The notes under the pieces: model-generated | Database searches by the model: none | Told to the model about the DNA's origin: nothing | Seen by the model: only the letters and a program-made list of their open reading frames with translations | NCBI GenBank assembly: GCA_964019135.1 | Contig: OZ025263.1 | Coordinates: 21,677,123 to 21,741,122 of the forward strand | Direction of reading: 5' to 3' | Length of the DNA stretch: 64,000 nt | Source: Arenicola marina | Taxonomy: Eukaryota; Annelida; Polychaeta; Arenicolidae | Shown: positions 3,821-55,500 of the stretch, piece after piece | How positions within the stretch are numbered: position 1 is the first letter of the stretch | Layout: every line of letters begins with the position of its first letter | Position numbers and translations under genes: made by a program

Positions 3821-4030
3821 TGCCCGCCTAGAGGCCAACGCATCGTTTCATTTGTTTACAGTTCAGCATGTAATGATGACAGTGCGTTATGTTATTAACG
3901 GACAGTCCAATCGCGGTCAGAAAACACTCGGCCTATGATTGCTGGTACAACGTCATACGCATAACGCAATTTCATCATTACATGCTGCAATGTAAACAAA
4001 TAAAACGATGCGTTGGCCTCTAGGCGGGCA
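3821..4030. repeat. Inverted repeat, ~71-bp arms and 68-bp spacer
   Basis: The left arm (3821-3891, starting TGCCCGCCTAGAGGCCAACG) is repeated as reverse complement at 3960-4030 with only a handful of mismatches. The spacer 3892-3959 is unique. The right arm stops about 40 bp before the 37-bp GC-rich array begins. It could be a foldback or MITE-like element or a local inverted duplication. No terminal target duplication is evident. Confidence 0.88.
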
Positions 4031-4070
4031 AACCGTTGACACCGGTTCCGAAAACGGCCCGCGACGGTGG

Positions 4071-12240: not shown

Positions 12241-12480
12241 GGTGTCACCCCTTGGTCTAGATGGTAGCGCGTTCGGCTAGTGTGAAGAATGCTCTGCCAG
12301 CCCTGGGCGTGGTTCGCGCCCCGCCTGTGTGTACAGGACAAAGCTCCCATGTCTCTCTTCGCATGAGGTATAAAGAGAGTTACTCTCGCGGACTCTACCT
12401 TGACCCCGTGACCCTTCCCATAGTGGCAATATGACCTACATGGGTGCAAGCGCCCTACATGAACAGAGCAAGAAAAATAA
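12241..12480 (+). mobile_element. tRNA-derived SINE-like element
   Basis: The 5' part is tRNA-like. TGGTCTAGATGG at 12253-12264 matches a Pol III A box, and GGTTCGCGCCC at 12311-12321 matches a B box with normal spacing (about 46 bp). A non-tRNA body of about 150 bp follows, ending in an A-rich tail (AAGAAAAATAAACG near 12470). This head-body-tail layout is that of a SINE. The true ends and target duplications are uncertain. A short AAA(G/A)TAAACG match on both sides is only suggestive. Confidence 0.6.
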
Positions 12481-15390: not shown

Positions 15391-16390
15391 AACCTTCACC
15401 GGTGGAGTAGAGGCAATCGAACGTTGCAGAGCTGCCCTGCAGTCAATTTGGGTAGCCTCTCTTATTGGCTGGTTCGTACCCTCCCAACGTTCCTTCACTT
15501 ATATCGGTCGCATCAAAATGCAATGGTTACGGTTGAAGCAGTGACGTCATGGTCGGTTGTGGTAGATCGAAGTTTCAAATATAAAAAAAAATGCATTTAA
15601 TTCATTCGAACGGAAATTAGGCTTTTATGAAAGCTTGAAAGTACTGGTCTAAAATGAGAACCTACATCATGTTCGGCTGTAGTGATTGCCCCGTCTGGCC
15701 CCCAGGTTAGGTCAGCCACGAGTCTCTTTGATAGCGGAATAGGTTTAACACCCTATGCGGACACCGGTTAGATATTCCAGCCACAGCTCTGTGTTCTGCT
15801 CCTCAGCCCTGACCATGCTCCTTTAAACGAAAAAACACGTCTGATGGCCCAGTATTTGACACATCTGTGAATACCCCACAAAGGCAGTGACTATTGGCAT
15901 GCTCCGCACCCAGCGGTGGGGCTAGATATTGACATATTTTAGTATGATTAATTGTAATATATAGCTGCCCCCTTTCTCGACGTCTGGGAGGGAGCAGCCA
16001 AGGAGAACGGTAGGTCCAGGACTGCCGTCAATCTTAGGCTTTTATTGAATGACTCTGCTCTCTGTCTCTTGGGTCAAATGGTAGCCAGTCTGGGGGAAGA
16101 CTGTGACGTCATCGAGACGTCTGATGAAGCTTTCTTTCGGCAAGAAACTATGTGACAGTAGTAAAAACACTTGTTTGACAGGCAGTGTATCTTCAATTCC
16201 GTAATAATGGCATGTGTTTTATCACAATAACTCAAGTTATGGCCCACAGGGGATTAACAGTATTATACTACAATAATCTCACTCCAACATCATCTCGATC
16301 CCGCGTAATCCAATGATGTTGCATGGGCGGTGATGGCGACAACTGGGGCACGCTGTCCACACGGCGGTTAGGCAGTATGGTCGGTCAGCC
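15391..16390. other. Unique region, no gene seen
   Basis: About 1 kb of complex sequence between the MITE-like element and the 45-bp satellite. TGACGTCA-type CRE matches occur near 15542 and 16106, but there is no open frame or exon that I can defend. Confidence 0.5.
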
Positions 16391-19300
16391 ATTCCCTCTC
16401 ACGGTCAAAGCAGGCAAAACATTCACCCGTCTGCCATTCCCTCTCACGGTCATAGCAGGCAAAACATTCACCCGTCTGCCATTCCCTCTCACGGTCATAG
16501 CAGACAAAACATTCACCCGTCTGCCATTCCCTCTCACTGTCATAGCAGGCAAATCATTCACCCGTCTGCCATTCCCTCTCACGGTCATAGCAGGCAAAAC
16601 ATTCACCCGTCTGCCATTCCCTCTCACGGTCATAGCAGGCAAAACATTCACCCGTCTGCCATTCCCTCTCACGGTCATAGCAGGCAAAACATTCACCCGT
16701 CTGCCATTCCCTCTCACGGTCATAGCAGACAAAACATTCACCCGTCTGCCATTCCCTCTCACTGTCATAGCAGGCAAAACATTCACCCGTCTGCCATTCC
16801 CTCTCACGGTCATAGCAGACAAAAAATTCACCCGTCTGCCATTCCCTCTCACGGTCATAGCAGGCAAAACATTCACCCGTCTGCCATTCCCTCTCACGGT
16901 CATAGCAGGCAAAACATTCACCCGTCTGCCTTTCCCTCTCACTGTCATAGCAGGCAAAACATTCACCCGTCTGCCAGTCCCTCTCACTGTCATAGCAGGC
17001 AAAACATTCACCCGTCTGCCATTCCCTCTCACGGTCATAGCAGACAAAACATTCACCCGTCTGCCATTCCCTCTCACTGTCATAGCAGGCAAAACATTCA
17101 CCCGTCTGCCATTCCCTCTCACTGTCATAGCAGGCAAAACATTCACCCGTCTGCCATTCCCTCTCACTGTCATAGCAGGCAAAACATTCACCCGTCTGCC
17201 ATTCCCTCTCACGGTCATAACAGGCAAAACATTCACCCGTCTGCCATTCCCTCTCACTGTCATAGCAGGCAAAACATTCACCCGTCTGCCATTCCCTCTC
17301 ACTGTCATAGCAGGCAAAACATTCACCCGTCTGCCATTCCCTCTCAATGTCATAGCAGGCAAAACATTCACCCGTCTGCCATTCCCTCTCACGGTCATAA
17401 CAGGCAAAACATTCACCCGTCTGCCATTCCCTATCACGGTCATAGCAGGCAAAACATTCACCCGTCTGCCATTCCCTCTCACTGTCATAGCAGGCAAAAC
17501 ATTCACCCGTCTGCCATTCCCTCTCACTGTCATAGCAGGCAAAACATTCACCCGTCTGCCATTCCCTCTCACGGTCATAGCAGGCAAAACATTCACCCGT
17601 CTGCCATTCCCTCTCACGGTCATAGCAGGCAAAACATTCACCCGTCTGCCATTCCCTCTCACGGTCATAACAGGCAAAACATTCACCCGTCTGCCATTCC
17701 CTCTCACGATCATAGCAGGCAAAACATTCACCCGTCTGCCATTCCCTCTCACGGTCATAGCAGGCAAAACATTCACCCGTCTGCCATTCCCTCTCACGGT
17801 CATAGCAGGCAAAACATTCACCCGTCTGCCTTTCCCTCTCACTGTCATAGCAGGCAAAACATTCACCCGTCTGCCATTCCCTCTCACTGTCATAGCAGGC
17901 AAAACATTCACCCGTCTGCCATTCCCTCTCACGGTCATAGCAGACAAAACATTCACCCGTCTGCCATTTCCTCTCACGGTCATAGCAGGCAAAACATTCC
18001 CCCGTCTGCCATTCCCTCTCACGGTCATAGTAGACGAAACATTCACCCGTCTGCCATTCCCTCTCACTGTCATAGCAGGCAAAACATTCACCCGTCTGCC
18101 ATTCCCTCTCACTGTCATAGCAGGCAAAACATTCACCCGTCTGCCATTCCCTCTCACTGTCATAGCAGGCAAAACATTCACCCGTCTGCCATTCCCTCTC
18201 ACGGTCATAGCAGGCAAAACATTCACCCGTCTGCCATTCCCTCTCACGGTAATAGCAGGCAAAACATTCACCCGTCTGCCATTCCCTCTCACGGTCATAA
18301 CAGGCAAAACATTCACCCGTCTGCCATTCCCTCTCACGGTCATAGCAGGCAAAACATTCACCCGTCTGCCATTCCCTCTCACTGTCATAGCAGGCAAAAC
18401 ATTCACCCGTCTGCCATTCCCTCTCACTGTCATAGCAGGCAAAACATTCACCCGTCTGCCATTCCCTCTCCCGGTCATAACAGGCAAAACATTCACCCGT
18501 CTGCCATTCCCTCTCACTGTCATAGCAGGCAAAACATTCACCCGTCTGCCATTCCCTCTCACGGTCATAGTAGACGAAACATTCACCCGTCTGCCATTCC
18601 CTCTCACGGTCATAGCAGGCAAAACATTCACCCGTCTGCCATTCCCTCTCACTGTCATAGCAGGCAAAACATTCACCCGTCTGCCATTCCCTCTCACTGT
18701 CATAGCAGGCAAAACATTCACCCGTCTGCCATTCCCTCTCACGGTCATAGCAGGCAAAACATTCACCCGTCTGCCATTCCCTCTCACGGTCATAGCAGGC
18801 AAAACATTCACCCGTCTGCCATTCCCTCTCACGGTCATAGCAGGCAAAACATTCACCCGTCTGCCATTCCCTCTCACGGTCATAGCAGGCAAAACATTCA
18901 CCCGTCTGCCATTCCCTCTCACGGTCATAGCAGGCAAAACATTCACCCGTCTGCCATTCCCTCTCACTGTCATAGCAGGCAAAACATTCACCCGTCTGCC
19001 ATTCCCTCTCACGGTCATAACAGGCAAAACATTCACCCGTCTGCCATTCCCTCTCACTGTCATAGCAGGCAAAACATTCACCCGTCTGCCATTCCCTCTC
19101 ACTGTCATAGCAGGCAAAACATTCACCCGTCTGTCATTCCCTCTCACGGTCATAGCAGGCAAAACATTCACCCGTCTGCCATTCCCTCTCACTGTCATAG
19201 CAGGCAAAACATTCACCCGTCTGCCATTCCCTCTCACTGTCATAGCAGGCAAAACATTCACCCGTCTGCCATTCCCTCTCACTGTCATAGCAGGCAAAAC

Positions 19301-22176
19301 ATTCACCCGTCTGCCATTCCCTCTCACGGTCATAGCAGGCAAAACATTCACCCGTCTGCCATTCCCTCTCACGGTCATAGCAGGCAAAACATTCACCCGT
19401 CTGCCATTCCCTCTCACTGTCATAGCAGGCAAAACATTCACCCGTCTGCCATTCCCTCTCACGGTCATAGCAGACAAAACATTCACCCGTCTGCCATTTC
19501 CTCTCACGGTCATAGCAGGCAAAACATTCCCCCGTCTGCCATTCCCTCTCACGGTCATAGTAGACGAAACATTCACCCGTCTGCCATTCCCTCTCACTGT
19601 CATAGCAGGCAAAACATTCACCCGTCTGCCATTCCCTCTCACTGTCATAGCAGGCAAAACATTCACCCGTCTGCCATTCCCTCTCACTGTCATAGCAGGC
19701 AAAACATTCACCCGTCTGCCATTCCCTCTCACGGTCATAGCAGGCAAAACATTCACCCGTCTGCCATTCCCTCTCACGGTAATAGCAGGCAAAACATTCA
19801 CCCGTCTGCCATTCCCTCTCACGGTCATAACAGGCAAAACATTCACCCGTCTGCCATTCCCTCTCACGGTCATAGCAGGCAAAACATTCACCCGTCTGCC
19901 ATTCCCTCTCACTGTCATAGCAGGCAAAACATTCACCCGTCTGCCATTCCCTCTCACTGTCATAGCAGGCAAAACATTCACCCGTCTGCCATTCCCTCTC
20001 CCGGTCATAACAGGCAAAACATTCACCCGTCTGCCATTCCTTCTCACTGTCATAGCAGGCAAAACATTCACCCGTCTGCCATTCCCTCTCACGGTCATAG
20101 CAGACAAAACATTCACCCGTCTGCCATTTCCTCTCACGGTCATAGCAGGCAAAACATTCCCCCGTCTGCCATTTCCTCTCACGGTCATAGCAGGCAAAAC
20201 ATTCACCCGTCTGCCATTCCCTCTCACTGTCATAGCAGGCAAAACATTCACCCGTCTGCCATTCCCTCTCACTGTCATAGCAGGCAAAACATTCACCCGT
20301 CTGCCATTCCCTCTCACTGTCATAGCAGGCAAAACATTCACCCGTCTGCCATTCCCTCTCACGGTCATAGTAGACGAAACATTCACCCGTCTGCCATTCC
20401 CTCTCACGGTCATAGCAGGCAAAACATTCACCCGTCTGCCATTCCCTCTCACTGTCATAGCAGGCAAAACATTCACCCGTCTGCCATTCCCTCTCACTGT
20501 CATAGCAGGCAAAACATTCACCCGTCTGCCATTCCCTCTCACGGTCATAGCAGGCAAAACATTCACCCGTCTGCCATTCCCTCTCACGGTCATAGCAGGC
20601 AAAACATTCACCCGTCTGCCATTCCCTCTCACGGTCATAGCAGGCAAAACATTCACCCGTCTGCCATTCCCTCTCACGGTCATAGCAGGCAAAACATTCA
20701 CCCGTCTGCCATTCCCTCTCACGGTCATAGCAGGCAAAACATTCACCCGTCTGCCATTTCCTCTCACTGTCATAGCAGGCAAAACATTCACCCGTCTGCC
20801 ATTCCCTCTCACGGTCATAACAGGCAAAACATTCACCCGTCTGCCATTCCCTCTCACTGTCATAGCAGGCAAAACATTCACCCGTCTGCCATTCCCTCTC
20901 ACTGTCATAGCAGGCAAAACATTCACCCGTCTGTCATTCCCTCTCACGGTCATAGCAGGCAAAACATTCACCCGTCTGCCATTCCCTCTCACTGTCATAG
21001 CAGGCAAAACATTCACCCGTCTGCCATTCCCTCTCACTGTCATAGCAGGCAAAACATTCACCCGTCTGCCATTCCCTCTCACTGTCATAGCAGGCAAAAC
21101 ATTCACCCGTCTGCCATTCCCTCTCACGGTCATAGCAGGCAAAACATTCACCCGTCTGCCATTCCCTCTCACGGTCATAACAGGCAAAACATTCACCCGT
21201 CTGCCATTCCCTCTCACTGTCATAGCAGGCAAAACATTCACCCGTCTGCCATTCCCTCTCACTGTCATAGCAGGCAAAACATTCACCCGTCTGCCATTCC
21301 CTCTCACGGTCATAGCAGGCAAAACATTCACCCGTCTGCCATGCCCTCTCACGGTCATAGCAGGCAAAACATTCACCCGTCTGCCATTCCCTCTCACTGT
21401 CATAGCAGGCAAAACATTCACCCGTCTGCCATTCCCTCTCACTGTCATAGCAGACAAAACATTCACCCGTCTGCCATTCCCTCTCACGGTCATAGCAGGC
21501 AAAACATTCACCCGTCTGTCATTCCCTCTCACGGTCATAGCAGGCAAAACATTCACCCGTCTGCCATTCCCTCTCACGGTCATAGCAGGCAAAACATTCA
21601 CCCGTCTGCCATTCCCTCTCACTGTCATAGCAGGCAAAACATTCACCCGTCTGCCATTCCCTCTCACGGTCATAGCAGGCAAAACATTCACCCGTCTGCC
21701 ATTCCCTCTCACGGTCATAGCAGGCAAAACATTCACCCGTCTGCCATTCCCTCTCACGGTCATAGCAGGCAAAACATTCACCCGTCTGCCATTCCCTCTC
21801 ACGGTCATAGCAGGCAAAACATTCACCCGTCTGCCATTCCCTCTCACGGTCATAGCAGGCAAAACATTCACCCGTCTGCCATTCCCTCTCACTGTCATAG
21901 CAGGCAAAACATTCACCCGTCTGCCATTCCCTCTCACTGTCATAGCAGACAAAACATTCACCCGTCTGCCATTCCCTCTCACGGTCATAGCAGGCAAAAC
22001 ATTCACCCGTCTGCCATTCCCTCTCACGGTCATAGCAGGCAAAACATTCACCCGTCTGCCATTCCCTCTCACGGTCATAGCAGGCAAAACATTCACCCGT
22101 CTGCCATTCCCTCTCACGGTCATAGCAGGCAAAACATTCACCCGTCTGCCATTCCCTCTCACTGTCATGGCAAACC
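16391..22176. repeat. 45-bp satellite, 128 full copies, open on both strands
   Basis: A highly uniform array with core CAGGCAAAACATTCACCCGT followed by CTGCCATTCCCTCTCACGGT. Unit starts run from 16391 to 22151 in exact 45-bp steps (128 full units plus a partial 129th). Since 45 is divisible by three, the plus strand is open for 1,959 codons (16323-22202), reading FPLTVIAGKTFTRLP per unit. The minus strand is open for 1,983 codons, reading GNGRRVNVLPAMTVR, and other frames are open for long stretches. The commonest variation is ACGGTC versus ACTGTC, silent in both main frames. Others alter residues (A to T, G to D, and an A-G-K to V-D-E triple change). No indel or stop breaks the array. I call it satellite DNA. 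A translated repetitive protein cannot be excluded from the sequence alone. Confidence 0.97.
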
Positions 22177-27995: not shown

Positions 27996-28465
27996 AGCAG
28001 CCTGCTGTATGGCAGTGAAACGTGGATTATCGCATATTGTGGCCAAGAAAGGAAAGTGAACAACTTCCATGTTTTTTGCTTGTAAGACATGTTAGACATA
28101 TGTCGGCAAGACACCTTAACGAAGGCTGAAATGTTAGCCATGGCCAGCCTACCAAGCATTCTTGCTCTTGTGAAGCAAATATGTCTTCGTTGGCTTGGGA
28201 ACGTTCATCGTTTGTAAAGAGGTCAACTAGACGGCCAAAGCTCAGGTTTAAAGATGTTTGCAAGCGTGCCATGAAGGCTTTGGGCATCGATTCACATTCT
28301 TGGAAGAATCTAGCATCCTGTAAAATTAGATTGGTACGTCTCGTGCGAGTGGGAATGGCCCACCACGACGGGCTCTGCTTTGAGAAACTGGATTTGAAAC
28401 GCCAATCTAGGCGTCCAGTGAATATAAACCTAAACGCAACGACAGGTTTTCTGTGCGACGACTAA
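27996..28465 (+). pseudogene. Decayed LINE ORF2 C-terminal region
   Basis: Frame starting at 27996 reads LLYGSETW at 28002, later LRWLGNVHR ending near 28211, broken by stop codons at about 28074 and 28215. The reading then continues in another frame from 28223 with RRPKLRF and RFKDVCKRAMKALGID, then W-KNLASCK. YGSETW, RWLGHV and RGRPKLRFKDVCKRDLKALGID-type blocks, in this order, are characteristic of the region downstream of the reverse transcriptase core in many animal non-LTR retrotransposons. The copy is 5'-truncated, has at least two stops and one frameshift, and cannot be active. The open frame 28181-28465 is the right half of this remnant, not an independent gene. Confidence 0.85.
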
Positions 28466-29814: not shown

Positions 29815-30350
29815 AGGAGAGGGGGGGGGTGAAGACAGAGCGGGGATGGGGGTAGGAGGGGAGGGGGCAGCGGGAGAAGAGGAGGGGAGGGGGAGGGGGA
29901 GGGGGAGGCCGTGGCTTGACGCCGTTGCTCACACCGCTCGCTGTTATTGAGCGCTAACCGTTTTTTCGGTGGTTCCCGATATTTGATATAAACGACCCCC
30001 CCCCCCCCGCTTCCTCCATCCCTCCTGCTTCGCCTCTGTCCCTCTCTCCCCCCTCCGTCTGCACTTACCTGCATCCACCGCGCCGACGAATTGTTCAACC
30101 CGACACCCGAACACCCAACCTGCCTTCCTTTGACAACTCTTCCGATCAACCGCCCCATCATACACTACCCGCCCCCCTCCTCCAGCTTCCTTCCCCTCCA
30201 CCCACTGCCTCCACACCACTTTTATCCATTCTCGCCCCTCCACCTACCCCCATTCCCGACTGCTTCACACATCCTTGCGGTTCCACCCCCCCCCCTCGCC
30301 CCTCTACACCCCCACCCCCTCGCCCCCTCCACCCCCCCCCCCGCGCTCCA
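29815..30350. repeat. Polypurine block then polypyrimidine block
   Basis: G/A-rich sequence at about 29817-29910 is followed, after about 90 bp of mixed sequence, by C-rich sequence from 29996 to about 30350 with several C homopolymers. Open frames here are low-complexity proline or glycine/arginine readings. Confidence 0.75.
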
Positions 30351-30589
30351 GCCACCCCTGCTGCACTTCTTTGACGGCCGATCGGCGTCTTTTTTTCAGT
30401 CTCAGCTTCTTAGAGAGCAGTTTCCTCGCTCGACTTAAATTCTCCCCTTCAATAGCTGAGGTTGTTGAGGCCCCACCCTCCGCCATACCCCCCGGAAGCA
30501 CCCCTATATCCATCTGTCTCGAGCCCCCGCCCCCCCCCCCCACCCCTCCATCTCACGTTGGTGTCCTCGTAGCGAGCTCGGCGGGTCCT
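30351..30589. other. Unique spacer
   Basis: Complex sequence left of the duplicated segment, with a C run near 30528-30541. No gene seen. Confidence 0.5.
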
Positions 30590-33092
30590 CATGGAATAGC
30601 TTGGTGTCAGAACTGCATGAATAATTCACTGAGGTTTCCCATGATGTAGGTCTCCTACCAGGAACGGACCACGGTCAGGGGCAAGAGTGCGACCCTCGCG
30701 TCAATGTACCAGTGGTCAGGGGAAGTGTGACCCACGCCCTCAATGTACCAGTGGTCAGTGGAAGTGTCACTCACGCCCTCCAAATGTACCGGACACTGGA
30801 CCAGTGGTCAGGGGAAGTGTGACTCACGCCCTCCAAATGTACCAGACACTGGACCAGTGGTCAGGGGAAGTGTGACCCACGCCCTCCAAATGTACCAGAC
30901 ACTGGACAAGTGGTCAGGGGAAGTGTGACCCACGCCCTCCAAATGTACCGGACACTGGACCAGTGGTCAGGGGAAGTGTGACCCACGCCCTCCAAATGTA
31001 CCAGACACTGGACCAGTGGTCAGGGGAAGTGTGACTCACACCCTCCAAATGTACCGGACACTGGACCAGTGGTCAGGGAAAGTGTGACTCACGCCCTCCA
31101 AATGTACCGGACACTGGACCAGTGGTCAGGGGAAGTGTGACTCACGCCCTCCAAATGTACCGGACACTGGACCAGTGGTCAGGGAAAGTGTGACTCACGC
31201 CCTCCAAATGTACCGGACACTGGACCAGTGGTCAGGGGAAGTGTGACTCACGCCCTCCAAATGTACCGGACACTGGACCAGTGGCCAGGGGAAGTGTGAC
31301 TCACGCCCTCCAAATGTACCAGACACTGGACCAGTGGTCAGGGGAAGTGTCACTCACGCCCTCCAAATGTACCAGACACTGGACAAGTGGTCAGGGGAAG
31401 TGTGACCCACGCCCTCCAAATGTACCGGACACTGGACCAGTGGTCAGGGGAAGTGTGACTCACGCCCTCCAAATGTACCGGACACTGGACCAGTGGTCAG
31501 GGAAAGTGTGACTCACGCCCTCCAAATGTACCGGACACTGGACCAGTGGTCAGGGGAAGTGTGACTCACGCCCTCCAAATGTACCGGACACTGGACCAGT
31601 GGTCAGGGGAAGTGTGACTCACGCTCTCCAAATGTACCGGACACTGGACCAGTGGTCAGGGAAAGTGTGACTCACGCCCTCCAAATGTACCGGACACTGG
31701 ACCAGTGGTCAGGGGAAGTGTGACTCACGCCCTCCAAATGTACCGGACACTGGACCAGTGGTCAGGGGAAGTGTGACTCACGCCCTCCAAATGTACCGGA
31801 CACTGGACCAGTGGTCAGGGGAAGTGTGACTCACGCCCTCCAAATGTACCGGACACAGGACCAGTGGTCAGCGGAAGTGTGACTCACGCCCTCCAAATGT
31901 ACCGGACACTGGACCAGTGGTCAGGGGAAGTGTGACTCACGCCCTCCAAATGTACCGGACACTGGACCAGTGGTCAGGGGAAGTGTGACTCACGCCCTCC
32001 AAATGTACCGGACACTGGACCAGTGGTCAGGGGAAGTGTGACTCACGCTCTCCAAATGCACCAGACACTGGACCAGTGGTCAGGGGAAGTGTGACTCACG
32101 CCCTCCAAATGTACCGGACACTAGACCAGTGGCCAGGGGAAGTGTGACTCACGCCCTCCAAATGTACCGGACACTGGACCAGTGGTCAGGGGAAGTGTGA
32201 CCCACGCCCTCCAAATGTACCAGACACTGGACCAGTGGTCAGGGGAAGTGTGACTCACGCCCTCCAAATGTACCGGACACTGGACAAGTGGTCAGGGGAA
32301 GTGTGACTCACGCCCTCCAAATGTACGGGACACTGGACCAGTGGTCAGGGGAAGTGTGACTCACGCCCTCCAAATGTACCGAACACTGGACCAGTGGTCT
32401 GGGGAAGTATGACTCACGCCCTCCAAATGTACCGGACACTGGACCAGTGGTCAGGGGAAGTGTGACTCACGCCCTCCAAATGTACCGGACACTGGACCAG
32501 TGGTCAGGGAAAGTGTGACTCACGCCTTCCAAATGTACCGGACACTGGACCAGTGGTCAGGGGAAGTGTGACTCACGCCCTCCAAATGTACCAGACACTG
32601 GACCAGTGATCAGGGGAAGTGTGACTCACGCCCTCCAAATGTACCGAACACTGGACCAGTGGTCAGGGGAAGTGTGACTCATGCCCTCCAAATGTACCAG
32701 ACACTGGACCAGCGTATTTGTTTTGGTCCCGGAGCCCCTGTTCAGCTTCATCTATTCATTATTCGTCGTCCAGGAAAGATTCCTTTTCGAGGTTGGCCCT
32801 TGTTTAAAACCCCGATTTATTTCACCTACTAAAGCGCGTGAGATGAAGGTGGCATTAAAGGCACGGCACCCGGTCGCTCCCACAACGGGCAAACTAGACT
32901 CCAACATGAACGTTATATTTGTTTAAAGTGTTCTATAATAATTGACCGCAAAACACGTCCCTACTTAAACCAATATATATCTTCCAATATTGATCTGATG
33001 CTTGTTATCTATAATGTCCATTGCTATGCGATCAATTTGGGGATTCATTAAGCACGAGGTCTCAACAGCGTGCCCGCCAAGCCACCCAGAAG
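30590..33092. repeat. Copy 1 of a duplicated segment holding a 53-bp minisatellite (~37 units)
   Basis: Contains about 120 bp of unique left flank, a 53-bp array (about 30713-32711, core CACTGGACCAGTGGTCAGGG then GAAGTGTGACTCACGCCCTC), and 380 bp of unique right flank ending at the N gap. Every full unit carries CACTGGACCAGTG, an interrupted 6-bp palindrome. The first two units are shortened, lacking the CCGGACACTGGA part. The whole segment recurs after the gap. Confidence 0.97.
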
Positions 33093-33292
33093 NNNNNNNN
33101 NNNNNNNNNNNNNNNNNNNNNNNNNNNNNNNNNNNNNNNNNNNNNNNNNNNNNNNNNNNNNNNNNNNNNNNNNNNNNNNNNNNNNNNNNNNNNNNNNNNN
33201 NNNNNNNNNNNNNNNNNNNNNNNNNNNNNNNNNNNNNNNNNNNNNNNNNNNNNNNNNNNNNNNNNNNNNNNNNNNNNNNNNNNNNNNNNNNN
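33093..33292. other. Assembly gap, 200 N
   Basis: Exactly 200 undetermined bases. A round length suggests a fixed scaffold placeholder rather than a measured distance. The sequence just left (ending CACCCAGAAG) and just right (starting CATGGAATAGC) are the two ends of the same duplicated segment. Confidence 0.99.
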
Positions 33293-36209
33293 CATGGAAT
33301 AGCTTGGTGTCAGAACTGCATGAATAATTCACTGAGGTTTCCCATGATGTAGGTCTCCTACCAGGAACGGACCACGGTCAGGGGCAAGAGTGCGACCCTC
33401 GCGTCAATGTACCAGTGGTCAGGGGAAGTGTGACCCACGCCCTCAATGTACCAGTGGTCAGTGGAAGTGTCACTCACGCCCTCCAAATGTACCGGACACT
33501 GGACAAGTGGTCAGGGGAAGTGTGACTCACGCCCTCCAAATGTACCAGACACTGGACCAGTGGTCAGGGGAAGTGTGACCCACGCCCTCCAAATGTACCA
33601 GACACTGGACAAGTGGTCAGGGGAAGTGTGACCCACGCCCTCCAAATGTACCAGACACTGGACCAGTGGTCAGGGGAAGTGTGACTCACGCCCTCCAAAT
33701 GTACCGGACACTGGACCAGTGGTCAGGGAAAGTGTGACTCACGCCCTCCAAATGTACCGGACACTGGACCAGTGGTCAGGGGAAGTGTGACTCACTCCCT
33801 CCAAATGTACCGGACACTGGACCAGTGGTCTGGGGAAGTGTGACTCACGCCCTCCAAATGTACCGGACACTGGACCAGTGGTCAGGGGAAGTGTGACTCA
33901 CGCCCTCCAAATGTACCAGACACTGGACCAGTGGTCAGGGGAAGTGTGACTCACGCCCTCCAAATGTACCAGACACTGGACAAGTGGTCAGGGGAAGTGT
34001 GACCCACGCCCTCCAAATGTACCAGACACTGGACCAGTGGTCAGGGGAAGTGTGACTCACGCCCTCCAAATGTACCGGACACTGGACCAGGGGTCAGGGA
34101 AAGTGTGACTCACGCCCTCCAAATGTACCGGACACTGGACCAGTGGTCAGGGGAAGTGTGACTCACGCCCTCTAAATGTACCGGACACTGGACCAGTGGT
34201 CAGGGGAAGTGTGACTCACGCCCTCCAAATGTACCGGACACTGGACTAGTGGTCAGTGGAAGTGTGACTCACGCCCTCCAAATGTACCAGACACTGGACA
34301 AGTGGTCAGGGGAAGTGTGACTCACGCCCTCCAAATGTACCGGACACTGGACCAGTGGTCAGTGGAAGTGTGACTCACGCCCTCCAAATGTACCAGACAC
34401 TGGACAAGTGGTCAGGGGAAGTGTGACCCACGCCCTCCAAATGTACCAGACACTGGACCAGTGGTCAGGGGAAGTGTGACTCACGCCCTCCAAATGTACC
34501 GGACACTGGACCAGTGGTCAGGGAAAGTGTGACTCACGCCCTCCAAATGTACCGGACACTGGACCAGTGGTCAGGGGAAGTGTGACTCACGCCCTCCAAA
34601 TGTACCGGACACTGGACCAGTGGTCAGGGGAAGTGTGACTCACGCCCTCCAAATGTACCAGACACTGGACCAGTGGTCAGAGGAAGTGTCACTCACGCCC
34701 TCCAAATGTACCAGACACTGGACAAGTGGTCAGGGGAAGTGTGACCCACGCCCTCCAAATGTACCAGACACTGGACCAGTGGTCAGGGGAAGTGTGACTC
34801 ACGCCCTCCAAATGTACCGGACACTGGACCAGTGGTCAGGAAAAGTGTGACTCACGCCCTCCAAATGTACCGGACACTGGACCAGTGGTCAGGGGAAGTG
34901 TGACTCACGCCCTCCAAATGTACCGGACACTGGACCAGTGGTCAGGGGAAGTGTGACTCACGCCCTCCAAATGTACCGGACACTGGACCAGTGGTCAGGG
35001 GAAGTGTGACCCACGCCCTCCAAATGTACCGGACACTGGACCAGTGGTCAGGGGAAGTGTGACTCACGCCCTCCAAATGTACCGGACACTGGACCAGTGG
35101 TCAGGGGAAGTGTGACTCACGCCCTCCAAATGTACCGGACACTGGACCAGTGGTCAGGGGAAGTGTGACTCACGCCCTCCAAATGTACCGGACACTGGAC
35201 CAGTGGTCAGGGGAAGTGTGACTCACGCCCTCCAAATGTACCAGACACTGGACCAGTGGTCAGGGGAAGTGTGACTCACGCCCTCCAAATGTACCGGACA
35301 CTGGACCAGTGGTCAGGGGAAGTGTGACCCACGCCCTCCAAATGTACCAGACACTGGACCAGTGGTCAGGGGAAGTGTGACTCACGCACTCCAAATGTAC
35401 CGGACACTGGACAAGTGGTCAGGGGAAGTGTGACTCACGCCCTCCAAATGTGCCGGACACTGGACCAGTGGTCAGGGGAAGTGTGACTCACGCCCTCCAA
35501 ATGTACCGAACACTGGACCAGTGGTCTGGGGAAGTATGACTCACGCCCTCCAAATGTACCGGACACTGGACCAGTGGTCAGGGGAAGTGTGACTCACGCC
35601 CTCCAAATGTACCGGACACTGGACCAGTGGTCAGGGAAAGTGTGACTCACGCCCTCCAAATGTACCGGACACTGGACCAGTGGTCAGGGGAAGTGTGACT
35701 CACGCCCTCCAAATGTACCAGACACTGGACCAGTGGTCAGGGGAAGTGTGACTCACGCCCTCCAAATGTACCGAACACTGGACCAGTGGTCAGGGGAAGT
35801 GTGACTCATGCCCTCCAAATGTACCAGACACTGGACCAGCGTATTTGGTCCCGGAGCCCCTGTTCAGCTTCATCTATTCATTATTCGTCGTCCAGGAAAG
35901 ATTCCTTTTCGAGGTTGGCCCTTGTTTAAAACCCCGATTTATTTCACCTACTAAAGCGCGTGAGATGAAGGTGGCATTAAAGGCACCCGGTCGCTCCCAC
36001 AACGGGCAAACTAGACTCCAACATGAGCGTTATATTTGTTTAAAGTGTTCTATAATAATTGACCGCAAAACACGTCCCTACTTAAACCAATATATATCTT
36101 CCAATATTGATGTGATCCATTTTATCTATAATGTCCATTGCTATGCGATCAATTTGGGGATTCATTAAGCACGAGGTCTCAACAGCGTGCCCGCCAAGCC
36201 ACCCAGAAG
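33293..36209. repeat. Copy 2 of the duplicated segment (53-bp array, ~45 units)
   Basis: Matches 30590-33092 from its first to last base. The left flank is the same, the array (about 33416-35838) is eight units longer, and the right flank (35839-36209) differs by two 5-bp indels and a few substitutions. The total length difference of 414 bp equals 8 x 53 minus the 10 bp of flank indels. After 36209 the sequence continues into DNA not present left of the gap. This pattern fits two overlapping contig ends or two alleles. Confidence 0.95.
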
Positions 36210-36351
36210 GTTTCTAACCGGGCAGACAGAGAAAGCAAGACCTCCACACACAGGAAGTGTTCCTGATATATTGTGCCATATAGGTAGTCCACTTCGCGTC
36301 CTCTTCCTGGTAATTGGTAAAATGTTAATTAAGTACTTTAAGCACAACGCC
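36210..36351. other. Unique spacer
   Basis: No feature recognised. Confidence 0.5.
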
Positions 36352-36464
36352 CATGGTACATATATACATATGGTACATGGTACATATATACATATGGTAC
36401 ATGGTACATATATACATATGGTACATGGTACATATATACATATGGTACATGGTACATATATACA
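36352..36464. repeat. 24-bp minisatellite, about 4.7 copies
   Basis: GGTACATATATACATATG repeated every 24 bp with CATGGTAC joins. It is strongly self-complementary and reads as HGTYIHMV on the plus strand. Confidence 0.93.
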
Positions 36465-36829
36465 ATGTTTGACACACTATTCAGGTCGATAACGTACATA
36501 TCTATATACAAATATCAGCTACAGCGATGCTAAAAATGACTCTTAAGTTGAATGCTTCGTAAACAATAAATGGCTAAATTCATAATAATGTTTGGTTTTT
36601 ACGGCTGAAAAGTCCGTTAAAATTGTCGGAAGTGGGATAACGTGTATATACTTTTACAGTCTCTTATCCCGACTGGAGACATCTTCTTCTTTCTGCCTAT
36701 AAACCAAAACCGATGTGAGGGCTTTTGAGACTCCTAAACAGACATCACTATAGTCTGCTAATGTTGTAATTATCGCCGTAATTATCTATGAATAATCTAA
36801 TACGGAGATTGCAATAAAATGTCACTCGA
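36465..36829. other. Unique AT-rich spacer
   Basis: No gene or repeat recognised. Confidence 0.5.
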
Positions 36830-37450
36830 TCGTCACTCTTTCTAAACATATTCTCGACTCGTCATTATTCTTCGGAATATAGTCATCATGATTATCGTTG
36901 GGTCAGTCATCACGCTTCAATATTCTTTGGGGTGAGATCATTCTTAGTTAAGGTATTCTGCGGAGTGCCAGATGGCTAAATGGTTATTATTTCCCAGACT
37001 GTGATACGTTTTGGGGTGACGCTATTTGTAAACTCATGGTGTCATTATTATTTTTTGCGCTGTCATTATTCGTCGAGTGTCATTATTCCGTGAAATGACA
37101 TTATTATTTGGGGTGTCAGTATTCTTCGGTGCGTCATTATTCCTTGGGCTGTCACTATCCTTGGGAGTGTCATTATTCTTTGGTGGATCATTAATTTATA
37201 GCGTCATTAATTTTCCCATGGTCATTGTTATTCATAGAGGTATTTTTTTCTTCTGCGAGTCATTATTTATACATAATGTCTCAAATTTCTTGAGTGTATT
37301 TCCTCTAGATGACATTATTTTGAATTCATCATTATTGTGAGTGGCATTATTTCTCACAATGGCATTATTCTCCAGACAGTCATTATTCCTTCGAGTGTTA
37401 TTTTTCTCGGCGGTGTCATTATTCCTATGAGTGTCATTACTGCAGGAAAC
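36830..37450. repeat. Old degenerate GTCATTATTC repeat, ~20-28-bp period
   Basis: GTCATTATTC(T/C)T(T/C)GG(A/G) and variants recur irregularly about every 20-28 bp over 600 bp. The array is heavily diverged. A hydrophobic open frame at 37077-37340 is built from these units and is not a convincing gene. Confidence 0.78.
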
Positions 37451-38700: not shown

Positions 38701-38872
38701 TGGAAGAGCATTTGAGCGTTTTTGCAATGATGTCCGTATCTGAATCTGGTCGGCTACCCGATGAATACCCTAACTGAAAAGCAAGGGTGACCGTAACGGC
38801 CAAAATAAAATACCCTATATATCTCGAAAGGTTGGGGCTTGACAGTAACTGTAGATCATTACAAGCACGACC
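38701..38872. other. Unique spacer
   Basis: No feature recognised. Confidence 0.45.
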
Positions 38873-39002
38873 GCTCACCTCCGTGGATCATAATCCGTAC
38901 GGTGTCCGTGCACATGGCGGCCCTGTGTATAATACTTGGGTATATTATAGGGCCGCCGTGGGCTGACTGATACAGTACTGATTGGGATCAACGGAGGTGA
39001 GC
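38873..39002. repeat. Imperfect 130-bp hairpin
   Basis: Left end GCTCACCTCCGTGGATCA pairs with right end TGGGATCAACGGAGGTGAGC. Inside, GGCGGCCCTGTGTATAATAC pairs with GTATATTATAGGGCCGCC around a short loop near 38937. It may be a foldback MITE or a small hairpin transcript locus. Confidence 0.75.
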
Positions 39003-39341
39003 CCTCGTGGGGAGGCTATATGTGTGGTGGACCGACAGTTATGTTCAACATCATTGACTTCTTCATGACGTCACTACCATGTAAAGAAAGCATTTGGTTG
39101 TTCTCCTCTTTTCACAATAGCAGCCTAATAACTTTGTTGGGCGATGTAGAGCATGTGTCACGGCGGATGCAAGGGGGAAACATGTGGGAAACTTGTATTA
39201 CTTACCTCCGACCATGTATTGACATATCAAAGCTTATTAATAAGATGAACGTTCTTCTGGGCATAACAGAGCAGGAACATTTATTGGTAGACCACATGTG
39301 TATAATGGTTAAAAAGTATATATTTGCCGCACGATGTATTA
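39003..39341. other. Unique spacer
   Basis: A 108-codon frame (39020-39346) has no recognisable domain and sits between hairpins. Probably non-coding. Confidence 0.4.
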
Positions 39342-39442
39342 GATAAGGAATGAGTTGTAGGTCATTATTGGGATCGAAGAACTTCGAGGCGTAGCCGAGA
39401 AGTTGTGAGATCCCAATAATGACCTACAACTCATTCCTTATC
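39342..39442. repeat. Perfect 34-bp-arm palindrome
   Basis: Arm 39342-39375 (GATAAGGAATGAGTTGTAGG and GTCATTATTGGGATC) is matched without mismatch by its reverse complement at 39409-39442. The 33-bp centre is itself partly self-complementary (AACTTCGAGGC/GCCGAGAAGTT), so the 101 bp can form one nearly continuous hairpin. Confidence 0.95.
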
Positions 39443-39445
39443 TGG

Positions 39446-39652
39446 CTTAATGCCTACTTCTATTGTTTCCTCCGAGGAGGCGGCGATGGCATGGCGTATG
39501 TGAGCAGGAGGTCATTATTGTACCAAAGCGGGTCATTATAGTTCCGTCACAATAATGACCCGCTTTGGTACAATAATGACCTCCTGCTCACGGTCCGCAG
39601 GTCCTTACCGGCAAAACACGACTCCGAGGAAACAATAGAAGTATGCATTAAG
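39446..39652. repeat. Nested inverted repeats with perfect 40-bp inner arms
   Basis: Outer arms CTTAATGCCTACTTCTATTG (from 39446) and its near-complement ending at 39652 are about 27-31 bp with one or two mismatches. They enclose an inner palindrome: 39500-39539 (GTGAGCAGGAGGTCATTATT then GTACCAAAGCGGGTCATTAT) against 39552-39591, perfect over 40 bp with a 12-base loop. This is a foldback-type structure adjoining the palindrome at 39342. Confidence 0.93.
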
Positions 39653-46105: not shown

Positions 46106-46507
46106 CCCTCAACGGCATTGCATTATCTGATTTCCGCATTAAAACATACAAGAAAACGTGACTTCAGACAGAATAACCACCATCAATGCCCTCCACATCC
46201 TGTGACGTCACGCCCTTGTCGGTTGCCGGGCCCCACAGGGTACGTAAGTAAGCCCCATTTCCGTTGGATTATGCCCCAGATATCGAGCGAAATAATATCC
46301 TAGTTCCCAGTACGGGGACCCATCCTGCTCCGCGAACCGGAAAACCATCAGTTAATGTCATTTGGCATCCACCGGAGCACGGACAAAGTTTTGACGTGGC
46401 CTTAATTTACCCTGTTAGCATTGGTTGCGTTTTGTAAGGAGCTTACTCTGCCTGTTATAGCATTATAGAGTTTTGCTACCAGGTTACTGCCACGTGTTGA
46501 CCCCAGA
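46106..46507. other. Unique spacer
   Basis: About 400 bp of complex sequence between the CT-rich tract and the large satellite. No gene recognised. Confidence 0.5.
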
Positions 46508-49500
46508 GGCCGTGCGTTATGCCCAAACCACTGCTGTAGCACCAGAGAGACCGTGCGTTATGGCCTAACCACTGCTGTAGCACCAGAGGCCGTGCGTTAT
46601 GCCCTAACCACTGATGTAGCACCAGAGAGGCCGTGCGTTATGCCCTAACCACTGCTGTAGCACCAGATGCCGTGCGTTATGCCCTAACCACTGATGTAGC
46701 ACCAGAGAGGCTGTGCGTTATGCCCTAACCACTGCTGTAGCACCAGAGAGGCCGTGCGTTAAGCCCTAACCACTGATGTAGCACCAGAGAGGCTGTGCGT
46801 TATGCCCTAATCACTGCTGTAGCACCAGGCGCCGTGCGTTATGGCCTAACCACTGCTGTAGCACCAGGAGCCGTGCGTTATGCCCTAACCACTGCTGTAG
46901 CACCAGAGGCCGTGCGTTATGGCCTAACCACTGCTGTAGCACCAGAGAGGCCGTGCGTTATGCCCTAACCACTGACGTAAACACCAGAGAGGCTGTGCGT
47001 TATGCCCTAACCACTGCTGTAGCACCAGGCGCCGTGAGTTATGGCCTAACCACTGATGTAGAACCAGAGAGGCCGTGCGTTATGCCCTAACCACTGCTGT
47101 AGCACCAGAGGCCGTGCGTTATGCAATAACCACTGCTGTAGCACCAGAGGCCGTGCGTTATGCCCTAACCACTGCCATAGCACCAGAGACGCCGTGCGTT
47201 ATGCCCTAACCACTGCTGTAGCACCAGAGGCCGTGCGTTATGCCCAAACCACTGCTGTAGCACCAGACGCCGTGCGTTATGGCCTAACCACTGATGTAGC
47301 ACCAGAGAGGCCGTGCGTTATGCCCTAACCACTGCAGTAGCACCAGAGAGGCCGTGCGTTATGCCCTAACCACTGCTGTAGCACCAGACGCCGTGCGTTA
47401 TGGCCTAACCACTGATGTAGCACCAGAGAGGCCGTGCGTTTTGCAATAACCACTGCTGTAGCACCAGAGGCCGTGCGTTATGCCGTAACCACTGCTGTAG
47501 CACCAGAGAGGCCGTGCGTTATGCCCTAACCACTGCTGTAGCACCAGAGAGGCCGTGCGTTATGCCCTAACCCCTGCTGTAGCACCAGAGGCCGTGCGTT
47601 ATGCCCTAACCACTGATGTAGCAACAGAGAGGCTGTGCGTTATGCCCTAACCACTGCTGTAGCACCAGAGAGGCCGTGCGTTATGCCCTAACCACTGCTG
47701 TAGCACCAGTAAGGCCGTGCGTTATGCCCTAACCACTGATGTAGCACCAGTAAGGCCGTGCGTTATGCCCTAACTACTGCTGTAGCACCAAAGAGGCTGT
47801 GCGTTATGCCCTAACCATTGCTATAGCACCAGGCGCCGTGCGTTATGGCCTAACCACTGCTGTAGCACCAGAGAGGCCGTGCGTTATGGCCTAACCACTG
47901 CTGTAGCACCAGGGAGGCCGTGCGTTATGCCCTAACCACTGCCATAGCACCAGAGACGCCGTGCGTTATGCCCTAACCACTGCCATAGCACCAGAGACGC
48001 CGTCCGTTATGCCCTAACCACTGCTGTAGCACCAGAGGCCGTGCGTTATGCCGTAACCACTGCTGTAGCACCAGAGAGGCCGTGCGTTATGCCCTAACCA
48101 CTGCTGTAGCACCAGAGAGGCCGTGCGTTATGCCCTAACCAATGCTGTAGCACCAGAGGCCGTGCGTTATGCCCTAACCACTGCTGTAGCACCAGAGAGG
48201 CCGTGCGTTATGCCCTAACCACTGATGTAGCACCAGAAAGGCTGTGCGTTATGCCCTAACTACTGCTGTAGAACCAGAGAGGCTGTGCGTTATGCCCTAA
48301 CCATTGCTATAGCACCAGGCGCCGTGCGTTATGGCCTAACCACTGCTGTAGCACCAGAGAAGCCGTGCGTTATGCCCTAACCACTGCTGTAGCACCAGAG
48401 GTCGTGCGTTATGCAATAACCACAGCTGTAGCACCAGGGGCCGTGCGTTATGGCCTAACCACTGCTGTAGCACCAGAGAGGCCGTGCGTTATGCCCTAAC
48501 CACTGCCATAGCACCAGAGACGCCGTGCGTTATGCCCTAACCCCTGCCATAGCACCAGAGACGCCGTCAGTTATGCCCTAACCACTGCTGTAGCACCAGA
48601 GGCCGGGCGTTATGCCGTAACCACTGCTGTAGCACCAGAGAGGCCGTGAGTTATGCCCTAACCACTGCTGTAGCACCAGAGAGGCCGTGCGTTATGCCCT
48701 AACCACTGCTGTAGCACCAGAGGCCGTGCGTTATGCCCTAACCACTGATGTAGCACCAGAGAGGCTGTGCGTTATGCCCTAACCACTGCTGTAGCACCAG
48801 AGAGGCCGTGCGTTATGCCCTAACCACTGCTGTAGCACCAGAGAGGCTGTGCGTTATGCCCTAACCACTGCTGTAGCACCAGAGAGGCCGTGCGTTATGG
48901 CCTAACCACTGCTGTAGCACCAGAGAGGCCGTGCGTTATGCCCTAACCACTGCTGTAGCACCAGAGAGGCTGTGCGTTATGCCCTAACCATTGCTATAGC
49001 ACCAGGCGCCGTGCGTTATGGCCTAACCACTGCTGTAGCACCAGAGAGGCCGTGCGTTATGCCCTAACCACTGCTGTAGCACCAGAGGCCGTGCGTTATG
49101 CAATAACCACAGCTGTAGCACCAGGGGCCGTGCGTTATGGCCTAACCACTGCTGTAGCACCAGAGAGGCCGTGCGTTATGCCGTAATCACTGCTGTAGCA
49201 CCAGAGAGGCCGTGCGTTATGCCCTAACCACTGCTGTAGCACCAGAGAGGCCGTGCGTTATGCCCTAACCACTGCTGTAGCACCAGAGAGGCCATGCGTT
49301 ATGGCCTAACCACTGCTGTAGCACCAGGGGCCGTGCGTTTTGGCCTAACCACTGCTGTAGCACCAGAGAGGCCGTGCGTTATGCCCTAACCACTGCTGTA
49401 GCACCAGAGAGGCCGTGCGTTATTCCTCAACCACTGCTGTAGCATCAGTGAGGCCGTGCGTTATGCCCTAACCACTGATGTAGCACCAGAAAGGCTGTGC

Positions 49501-52500
49501 GTTATGCCCTAACCATTGCTATAGCACCAGGCGCCGTGCGTTATGGCTTAACCACTGCTGTAGCACCAGAGAGGCCGTGCGTTATGGCCTAACCACTGCT
49601 GTAGCACCAGGGAGGCCGTGCGTTATGCCCTAACCACTGCCATAGCACCAGAGACGCCGTGCGTTATGCCCTAACCACTGCCATAGCACCAGAGACGCCG
49701 TCCGTTATGCCCTAACCACTGCTGTAGCACCAGAGGCCGTGCGTTATGCCGTAACCACTGCTGTAGCACCAGAGAGGCCGTGCGTTATGCCCTAACCACT
49801 GCTGTAGCACCAGAGAGGCCGTGCGTTATGCCCTAACCAATGCTGTAGCACCAGAGGCCGTGCGTTATGCCCTAACCACTGCTGTAGCACCAGAGAGGCC
49901 GTGCGTTATGCCCTAACCACTGATGTAGCACCAGAAAGGCTGTGCGTTATGCCCTAACTACTGCTGTAGAACCAGAGAGGCTGTGCGTTATGCCCTAACC
50001 ATTGCTATAGCACCAGGCGCCGTGCGTTATGGCCTAACCACTGCTGTAGCACCAGAGAAGCCGTGCGTTATGCCCTAACCACTGCTGTAGCACCAGAGGT
50101 CGTGCGTTATGCAATAACCACAGCTGTAGCACCAGGGGCCGTGCGTTATGGCCTAACCACTGCTGTAGCACCAGAGAGGCCGTGCGTTATGCCCTAACCA
50201 CTGCCATAGCACCAGAGACGCCGTGCGTTATGCCCTAACCACTGCCATAGCACCAGAGACGCCGTCAGTTATGCCCTAACCACTGCTGTAGCACCAGAGG
50301 CCGGGCGTTATGCCGTAACCACTGCTGTAGCACCAGAGAGGCCGTGAGTTATGCCCTAACCACTGCTGTAGCACCAGAGAGGCCGTGCGTTATGCCCTAA
50401 CCACTGCTGTAGCACCAGAGGCCGTGCGTTATGCCCTAACCACTGATGTAGCACCAGAGAGGCTGTGCGTTATGCCCTAACCACTGCTGTAGCACCAGAG
50501 AGGCCGTGCGTTATGCCCTAACCACTGCTGTAGCACCAGAGAGGCTGTGCGTTATGCCCTAACCACTGCTGTAGCACCAGAGAGGCCGTGCGTTATGGCC
50601 TAACCACTGCCGTAGCACCAGAGAGGCCGTGCGTTATGCCCTAACCACTGCTGTAGCACCAGAGGCCGTGCGTTATGCAATAACCACAGCTGTAGCACCA
50701 GGGGCCGTGCGTTATGGCCTAACCACTGCTGTAGCACCAGAGAGGCCGTGCGTTATGCCGTAATCACTGCTGTAGCACCAGAGAGGCCGTGCGTTATGCC
50801 CTAACCACTGCTGTAGCACCAGAGAGGCCGTGCGTTATGCCCTAACCACTGCTGTAGCACCAGAGAGGCCATGCGTTATGGCCTAACCACTGCTGTAGCA
50901 CCAGGGGCCGTGCGTTTTGGCCTAACCACTGCTGTAGCACCAGAGAGGCCGTGCGTTATGCCCTAACCACTGCTGTAGCACCAGAGAGGCCGTGCGTTAT
51001 TCCTCAACCACTGCTGTAGCATCAGTGAGGCCGTGCGTTATGCCCTAACCACTGCTGTAGCACCAGAGAGGCCGTGCGTTATGCCCTACCCACCGCCGTA
51101 GCACCAGAGAGACCGTGCGCTATGGCCTAACCATTGCCGTAGCACCAGAGAGGCCGTGCGTTATGCCCTAACCACCGCCGTAGCACCAGAGCGGCCGTGC
51201 GTTATGCCCTAACCACTGCTGTAGCACCAGAGGCCGTGCGTTATGGCCTAACCACTGCTGTAGCACCAGAGAGGCCGTGCGTTATGGCTAACCACTACTG
51301 TAGCACCAGGGGCCGTGCGTTATGGCCTAACCACTGCTGTAGCAACAGGGGCCGTGCGTTATGCCCTAACCACTGCTGTAGCACCAGGAAGGCCGTGCGT
51401 TATGCCATAACCACTGCTGTCGCACCAGAGAGGCCGTGCGTTATGCCATAACCACTGCCATAGCACCAGAGACGCCGTGCGTTATGCCCTAACCACTGCC
51501 ATAGCACCAGAGACGCCGTGCGTTATGCCCTAACCACTGCTGTAGCACCAGAGAGGCTGTGCGTTATGCCCTAACCATTGCTATAGCACCAGGGGCCGTG
51601 CGTTATGGCCTAACCACTGCTGTAGCACCAGAGAGGCCGTGCGTTATGCCGTAACCACTGCTGTAGCACCAGAGAGGCCGTGCGTTATGCCCTAACCACT
51701 GCTGTAGCACCAGAGAGGCCGTGCGTTATGCCCTAACCACTGCTGTAGCACCAGAGAGGCCATGCGTTATGGCCTAACCACTGCTGTAGCACCAGGGGCC
51801 GTGCGTTATGGCCTAACCACTGCTGTAGCACCAGAGAGGCCGTGCGTTATGCCATAACCACTGCCGTAGCACCAGAGGCCGTGCGTTATGCCCTAACCAC
51901 TGCTGTAGCATCAGTGAGGCCGTGCGTTATGCCCTAACCACTGCTGTAGCACCAGAGAGGCCGTGCGTTATGCCCTACCCACCGCCGTAGCACCAGAGAG
52001 GCCGTGGGTTATGCCCTGACCACTGCTGTAGCACCAGAGGCCGTGCGTTATGGCCTAACCACTGCTGTAGCACCAGAGAGGCCGTGCGTTATGGCTAACC
52101 ACTGCTGTAGCACCAGGGGCCGTGCGTTATGGCCTAACCACTGCTGTAGCACCAGGGGCCGTGCGTTATGGCCTAACCACTGCTGTAGCACCAGAGAGGC
52201 GGTGCGTTATGCCCTAACCACTGCTGTAGCACCAGAGAGGCCGTGCGTTATGCCCTAACCACTGCTGTAGCATCAGTGAGGCCGTGCGTTATGCCCTAAC
52301 CACTGCTGTAGCACAAGAGAGGCCGTGCGTTATGCCCTACCCACCGCCGTAGCACCAGAGAGACCGTGCGCTATGGCCTAACCACTGCTGTAGCACCAGA
52401 GAGGCCGTGCGTTATGCCCTAACCACTGCCGTAGCACCAGAGAGGCCGTGGGTTATGCCCTAACCACTGCTGTAGCACCAGAGGCCGTGCGTTATGGCCT

Positions 52501-55500
52501 AACCACTGCTGTAGCACCAGAGAGGCCGTGCGTTATGGCCTAACCACTGCTGTAGCACCAGAGAGGCCGTGCGTTATGCCGTAACCACTGCTGTAGCACC
52601 AGAGAGGCCGTGCGTTATGCCGTAATCACTGCTGTAGCACCAGAGAGGCCGTGCGTTATGCCCTAACCACTGCTGTAGCACCAGAGAGGCCGTGCGTTAT
52701 GCCCTAACCACTGCTGTAGCACCAGAGAGGCCATGCGTTATGGCCTAACCACTGCTGTAGCACCAGGGGCCGTGCGTTTTGGCCTAACCACTGCTGTAGC
52801 ACCAGAGAGGCCGTGCGTTATGCCCTAACCACTGCTGTAGCACCAGAGAGGCCGTGCGTTATTCCTCAACCACTGCTGTAGCATCAGTGAGGCCGTGCGT
52901 TATGCCCTAACCACTGCTGTAGCACCAGAGAGGCCGTGCGTTATGCCCTACCCACCGCCGTAGCACCAGAGAGACCGTGCGCTATGGCCTAACCATTGCC
53001 GTAGCACCAGAGAGGCCGTGCGTTATGCCCTAACCACCGCCGTAGCACCAGAGCGGCCGTGCGTTATGCCCTAACCACTGCTGTAGCACCAGAGGCCGTG
53101 CGTTATGGCCTAACCACTGCTGTAGCACCAGAGAGGCCGTGCGTTATGGCTAACCACTACTGTAGCACCAGGGGCCGTGCGTTATGGCCTAACCACTGCT
53201 GTAGCAACAGGGGCCGTGCGTTATGCTCTAACCACTGCTGTAGCACCAGGAAGGCCGTGCGTTATGCCATAACCACTGCTGTCGCACCAGAGAGGCCGTG
53301 CGTTATGCCATAACCACTGCCATAGCACCAGAGACGCCGTGCGTTATGCCCTAACCACTGCCATAGCACCAGAGACGCCGTGCGTTATGCCCTAACCACT
53401 GCTGTAGCACCAGAGAGGCTGTGCGTTATGCCCTAACCATTGCTATAGCACCAGGGGCCGTGCGTTATGGCCTAACCACTGCTGTAGCACCAGAGAGGCC
53501 GTGCGTTATGCCGTAACCACTGCTGTAGCACCAGAGAGGCCGTGCGTTATGCCCTAACCACTGCTGTAGCACCAGAGAGGCCGTGCGTTATGCCCTAACC
53601 ACTGCTGTAGCACCAGAGAGGCCATGCGTTATGGCCTAACCACTGCTGTAGCACCAGGGGCCGTGCGTTATGGCCTAACCACTGCTGTAGCACCAGAGAG
53701 GCCGTGCGTTATGCCATAACCACTGCCGTAGCACCAGAGGCCGTGCGTTATGCCCTAACCACTGCTGTAGCATCAGTGAGGCCGTGCGTTATGCCCTAAC
53801 CACTGCTGTAGCACCAGAGAGGCCGTGCGTTATGCCCTACCCACCGCCGTAGCACCAGAGAGGCCGTGGGTTATGCCCTGACCACTGCTGTAGCACCAGA
53901 GGCCGTGCGTTATGGCCTAACCACTGCTGTAGCACCAGAGAGGCCGTGCGTTATGGCTAACCACTGCTGTAGCACCAGGGGCCGTGCGTTATGGCCTAAC
54001 CACTGCTGTAGCACCAGGGGCCGTGCGTTATGGCCTAACCACTGCTGTAGCACCAGAGAGGCGGTGCGTTATGCCCTAACCACTGCTGTAGCACCAGAGA
54101 GGCCGTGCGTTATGCCCTAACCACTGCTGTAGCATCAGTGAGGCCGTGCGTTATGCCCTAACCACTGCTGTAGCACAAGAGAGGCCGTGCGTTATGCCCT
54201 ACCCACCGCCGTAGCACCAGAGAGACCGTGCGCTATGGCCTAACCACTGCTGTAGCACCAGAGAGGCCGTGCGTTATGCCCTAACCACTGCCGTAGCACC
54301 AGAGAGGCCGTGGGTTATGCCCTAACCACTGCTGTAGCACCAGAGGCCGTGCGTTATGGCCTAACCACTGCTGTAGCACCAGAGAGGCCGTGCGTTATGG
54401 CCTAACCACTGCTGTAGCACCAGAGAGGCCGTGCGTTATGCCGTAACCACTGCTGTAGCACCAGAGAGGCCGTGCGTTATGCCCTAACCACTGCTGTAGC
54501 ACCAGAGAGGCCATGCGTTACGGCCTAACCACTGCTGTAGCACCAGGGGCCGTGCGTTATGGCCTAACCACTGCTGTAGCACCAGAGAGGCCGTGCGTTA
54601 TGCCCTAACCACTGCCGTAGCACCAGAGAGGCCGTGCGTTATGCCCTAACCACTGCTGTAGCATCAGTGAGGCCGTGCGTTATGCCCTAACCACTGCTGT
54701 AGCACCAGAGAGGCCGTGCGTTATGCCCTACCCACCGCCGTAGCACCAGAGAGGCCGTGGGTTATGCCCTAACCACTGCTGTAGCACCAGAGGCCGTGCG
54801 TCATGGCCTAACCACTGCTGTAGCACCAGAGAGGCCGTGCGTTATGGCTAACCACTGTTGTAGCACCAGGGGCCGTGCGTTATGGCCTAACCACTGCTGT
54901 AGCACCAGGGGCCGTGCGTTATGGCCTAACCACTGCTGTAGCACCAGAGAGGCCGTGCGTTATGCCCTAACCACTGCTGTAGCACCAGAGAGGCCGTGCG
55001 TTATGCCCTAACCACTGCTGTAGCATCAGTGAGGCCGTGCGTTATGCCCTAACCACTGCTGTAGCACAAGAGAGGCCGTACGTTATGCCCTACCCACCGC
55101 CGTAGCACCAGAGAGACCGTGCGCTATGGCCTAACCACTGCTGTAGCACCAGAGAGGCCGTGCGTTATGCCCTAACCACTGCCGTAGCACCAGAGAGGCC
55201 GTGGGTTATGCCCTAACCACTGCTGTAGCACCAGAGGCCGTGCGTTATGGCCTAACCACTGCTGTAGCACCAGAGAGGCCGTGCGTTACGGCTAACCACT
55301 GCTGTAGCACCAGGGGCCGTGCGTTATGGCCTAACCACTGCTGTAGCAACAGGGGCCGTGCGTTATGCCCTAACCACTGCTGTAGCACCAGAAAGGCCGT
55401 GCGTTATGCCATAACCAATGCTGTAGCACCAGAGAGGCCGTGCGTTATGCCCTAACCACTGATGTAGCACTAGAGAAGCTGTGCGTTATGCCCTAACCAT

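Follow-up and report, generated by a model that had tools for sequence, protein, structure and literature searches.

The two nearly identical segments that lie on either side of a gap in the Arenicola marina assembly (GCA_964019135.1, contig OZ025263.1) very probably represent a heterotype (haplotypic) false duplication, in which a scaffold gap coincides with a heterozygous 53-bp minisatellite, as judged from the assembled sequence itself. The scaffold would contain two versions of one locus, each derived from a different parental chromosome. The apparent duplication is most likely not a real feature but an assembly artefact of a known kind, ordinary for a tandem repeat of variable length. The window referred to below is the whole stretch of DNA analysed, 64,000 nt long (positions 21,677,123 to 21,741,122 of the contig), and the features described are on its forward strand.

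The window contains a single run of N, at positions 33093-33292, that is exactly 200 bases long. Copy A (30590-33092, 2503 bp) runs up to this gap and copy B (33293-36209, 2917 bp) extends from the gap onward, so that both copies adjoin the gap, one per side, on one scaffold. The first 60 bases 3′ of the gap match the sequence from 30590 onward, and positions 36170-36209 match the final 40 bases 5′ of the gap, in agreement with an earlier note on this DNA in which the copies were said to begin and end on the same bases. In a global alignment the suffix of contig 1 aligns end to end with the prefix of contig 2, i.e., the two form a dovetail. The limits of the match are those of the contigs: contig 2 does not reach back beyond the base that matches 30590, and contig 1 does not extend beyond the base that matches 36209. 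The earlier note had taken the coincidence of the outer breakpoints with the gap as an argument against a true duplication; this argument is weak and does not discriminate, since contig ends bound the match either way. The same contig ends would also bound the visible match if a segment of 2.9 kb or more had really been duplicated in tandem and the junction lay in the unsequenced gap, and the geometry alone permits that arrangement.

The flanking sequences of the two arrays are similar far above chance. The left flank of copy A (30590-30746, 157 bp), which includes degenerate shorter units, is identical to that of copy B (33293-33449) at the start of contig 2, with no substitution in 157 bp and all 127 31-mers in common. 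The right flanks (32713-33092, 380 bp, where contig 1 ends, and 35840-36209, 370 bp) differ by five substitutions and by two 5-bp segments of copy A, at positions 32717 and 32860, that copy B does not have. The two 5-bp flank indels reported earlier are thus present, both in the right flank; the second is an additional GGCAC adjoining GGCAC, a short tandem duplication of a kind that is common between alleles. When the window was compared with itself with tandem arrays masked (E 1e-3), the only same-strand pairs were the two flank pairs, the right one with a match of 371 bp (97.3%, E 2e-179) and the unmasked portion of the left one with a match of 96 bp (100%, E 1e-43); the five other pairs are inverted. 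The divergence of the flanks fits the level of alleles. Odd, and counting against an allelic reading, is the clustering of four of the five right-flank substitutions within 10 bp (32995-33004 in copy A, 36112-36121 in copy B), the rest of the flank being nearly identical. A search for a template of this cluster gave no match of at least 9 bases within 30000-37000, and a few 9- to 11-mer matches are found elsewhere in the window.

Between the flanks lie the arrays. Minisatellites are head-to-tail arrays with units of roughly 10-100 bp, and both arrays are of this type: tandem-repeat analysis gave a period of 53 with 37.1 copies in array A (30747-32712) and 45.1 copies in array B (33450-35839), with 96% matches in each. 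The whole units number 37 and 45, as estimated in the earlier note. That note had also described the difference between the copies as exactly eight units and a few substitutions. As a net length the first statement holds, copy B being longer by 414 bp (8 x 53 minus 2 x 5), but the correspondence of the interior units is ambiguous. The second is correct for the flanks (none on the left, five on the right) but not for the arrays, which account for 34 of the 39 substitutions in the global alignment. The same alignment places two gaps in the array, of 318 bp (six units) and 106 bp (two units), in addition to the two 5-bp indels. The longest exact stretch common to copies A and B is 212 bp; 448 of the 1198 distinct 31-mers of copy A and 432 of the 1182 of copy B are specific to that copy, and no 31-mer of either was found elsewhere in the window.

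At the level of whole units, 35 unit types were distinguished, 21 in array A and 22 in array B, with 8 common to both. Unit-level alignment with gap settings of 3/1 paired 37 units, 14 of them identical, with 35 substitutions or 1.8% per base; with settings of 2/0.5, 36 units were paired, 15 of them identical, with 29 substitutions. An earlier scoring, in which long gaps were charged too little, paired only 10 units and was superseded by these, although its cost (29.6) was also better than that of shuffled orders (lowest of 300 shuffles, 31.4). The order of units over the whole arrays is shared: the alignment score of 25 compares with a mean of -3.0 (sd 3.1) when the units of array B were shuffled, none of 400 shuffles scored as high, and reversal of the unit order gave -9. 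This agreement is carried by the array ends. After both arrays had been trimmed by 4 units at the start and 10 at the end, which left interiors of 23 and 31 units, the score was 4.0, a value reached by 62 of 400 shuffles (shuffle mean 1.5, sd 2.1), i.e., interior colinearity is not above chance. The two arrays thus resemble two versions of a single array whose edges are conserved and whose middle is altered, a pattern expected for alleles of a minisatellite. However, the non-colinear interior itself (23 versus 31 units) counts against alleles, since diverged paralogues would show the same.

A scan for higher-order periods covered 19 lags per array. In array A lags 8 and 9 stand out (values matched or undercut by 11 and 1 of 500 shuffles), and in array B lags 6, 7, 8 and 15 (22, 12, 7 and 18 of 500). 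A higher-order period as the source of the eight-unit step is suggestive, the values being uncorrected for the 38 tests.

The earlier note had proposed overlapping contig ends, or two alleles of one minisatellite, as better explanations than duplication. This preference is supported by the dovetail, the 200-N gap, the allele-like flank variants and the agreement of the array ends. Each of the two proposals stands, but not as alternatives, since the differences between the copies point to a heterozygous overlap, which is both at once, and not to one haplotype repeated. Contig 1 would stop 380 bp beyond the 37-unit allele of the minisatellite, and contig 2 would start 157 bp ahead of the 45-unit allele. 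The assembler would have left the contigs unjoined, probably owing to the allele differences, and the scaffolder would then have ordered the contigs correctly and placed a fixed gap of 200 N, with the overlap unrecognised. The true distance across the gap would be negative, and the 200-N length of the gap is probably conventional rather than measured. The difference in allele length probably arose in the ordinary way, as the array gained and lost units in blocks. In the available text of PMC13173280, an assembly scaffolded with YaHS is described as having 939 gaps that total 187.8 kb, an average of 200 each, and the present assembly may have been made with a YaHS-like scaffolder. The part of PMC11249255 that was available does not mention how long the gaps written by YaHS are.

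The sequences next to the contig ends were considered as causes of the break. A C-rich tract (29990-30589, 50% C) lies directly to the left of copy A, with C runs of 10-13 at 29996, 30286, 30332 and 30530. The 500 bp left of 30590 are 48.8% C (97th percentile of the window) and 71.4% C+T (98.9th percentile), with C runs of 10-12. Loss of reads from one haplotype at this tract is a plausible cause of the break. On the other side, a 24-bp AT-rich repeat is found at 36352-36464, 143 bp past 36209. Folding energies were ordinary in the three 300-base stretches tested (from 30290, 36210 and 36330 onward). The proposal that DNA difficult to sequence halted the two contigs at their ends is thus only half supported.

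The real tandem duplication introduced above, in which the two arrays would be paralogues that have diverged since, is unlikely. The 1-2% divergence, the unequal array lengths and the non-colinear interior suit paralogues as well as they suit alleles. However, no gap would be expected at such a duplication: the assembler passed exact repeats of 667 bp (in a 45-bp array) and 1256 bp (in a 41-bp array) in ungapped arrays of the window, so copies whose longest exact match is 212 bp should not have stopped it. Nor is a junction visible, as a comparison of the 1000 bp after 36209 with the 1000 bp before 30590 gave a best E of 5.2, although a junction could sit inside the gap. Ko et al. can be cited against a real duplication, but the support from that study for false duplication is partly circular, the presence of a gap being among its own criteria. 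A genuine recent duplication of the whole minisatellite with its flanks, in which the interiors then diverged fast and the array ends stayed colinear, is very improbable. Least credible is a homotype false duplication, in which one haplotype is present twice and the differences are consensus errors at low-coverage contig ends: according to the available text of PMC8081667, homotype duplications commonly sit at the boundaries of contigs and have a size near the read length, and the overlap here is at contig ends and only 2.5-2.9 kb long, but copies A and B are not identical except for consensus errors. Arrays that differ by eight whole units in length and by 34 substitutions in the alignment make an implausible error profile, the sets of unit types differ, and the two copies agree base for base over the final 88 bp of contig 1, although errors might be anticipated there.

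The heterotype false duplication favoured here resembles known cases. The "flanking contigs" type of heterotype false duplication is described in an Extended Data figure legend of Rhie et al. 2021 (PMC8081667), where, as far as the legend goes, two haplotype versions of one locus lie on one scaffold with a gap between them, one running on from the 5′ side and the other running into the 3′ side. No difference from this type is seen in the sequence layout, which was the basis of the comparison. The heterozygous contig overlaps treated by purge_dups, in the portion of PMC7203741 available, are likewise partial overlaps of contigs and not fully contained haplotigs; overlaps of that kind are removed there, whereas the present one remains in the scaffold. 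Alleles of hypervariable minisatellites (e.g., PMC2599865) differ in unit number and in their internal variant maps, as do the copies here at what is probably one locus, with the difference that only two putative alleles are present in this case.

The region is very rich in minisatellites, with about 65% of the known bases of the window (41463 of 63800) in tandem arrays, whose unit lengths include 49, 37, 21, 45, 31, 53, 41, 40 and 35 bp. The 41-bp array (46505-64000) is at least 17.5 kb long, runs to the end of the window and has exact internal repeats of up to 1256 bp. The 45-bp array (16384-22172) has 128.6 units with 97% matches, and three of its frames are open for about 1959-1985 codons; these frames are open because the unit length is divisible by three, and they give no evidence of a gene. 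Two adjacent near-palindromes, at 39341-39443 (87% self-complementary) and 39446-39652 (77%), have a fold-back-like look, and further near-palindromes are present at 3817-4034 and 38866-39009. Positions 12245-12330, where A-box- and B-box-like motifs were seen by eye, may be a tRNA-derived SINE; ARAGORN found no tRNA in the window. The translation of 28130-28465 resembles a LINE reverse transcriptase in its C-terminal region but had no Pfam match at E 0.1. The Pfam search covered six of the 82 listed open reading frames and gave no match at that threshold, and no Rfam match was obtained at gathering thresholds.

The importance of the finding lies mainly in assembly quality. If the two copies are alleles, the scaffold would exceed its true length by about 2.7 kb (2503 + 200) when allele B is kept, or by 3.1 kb (2917 + 200) when allele A is kept, and counts of repeat arrays or of duplications would include this locus twice. 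A side benefit is that copies A and B probably record the maps of the two alleles that one individual carries at a variable minisatellite.
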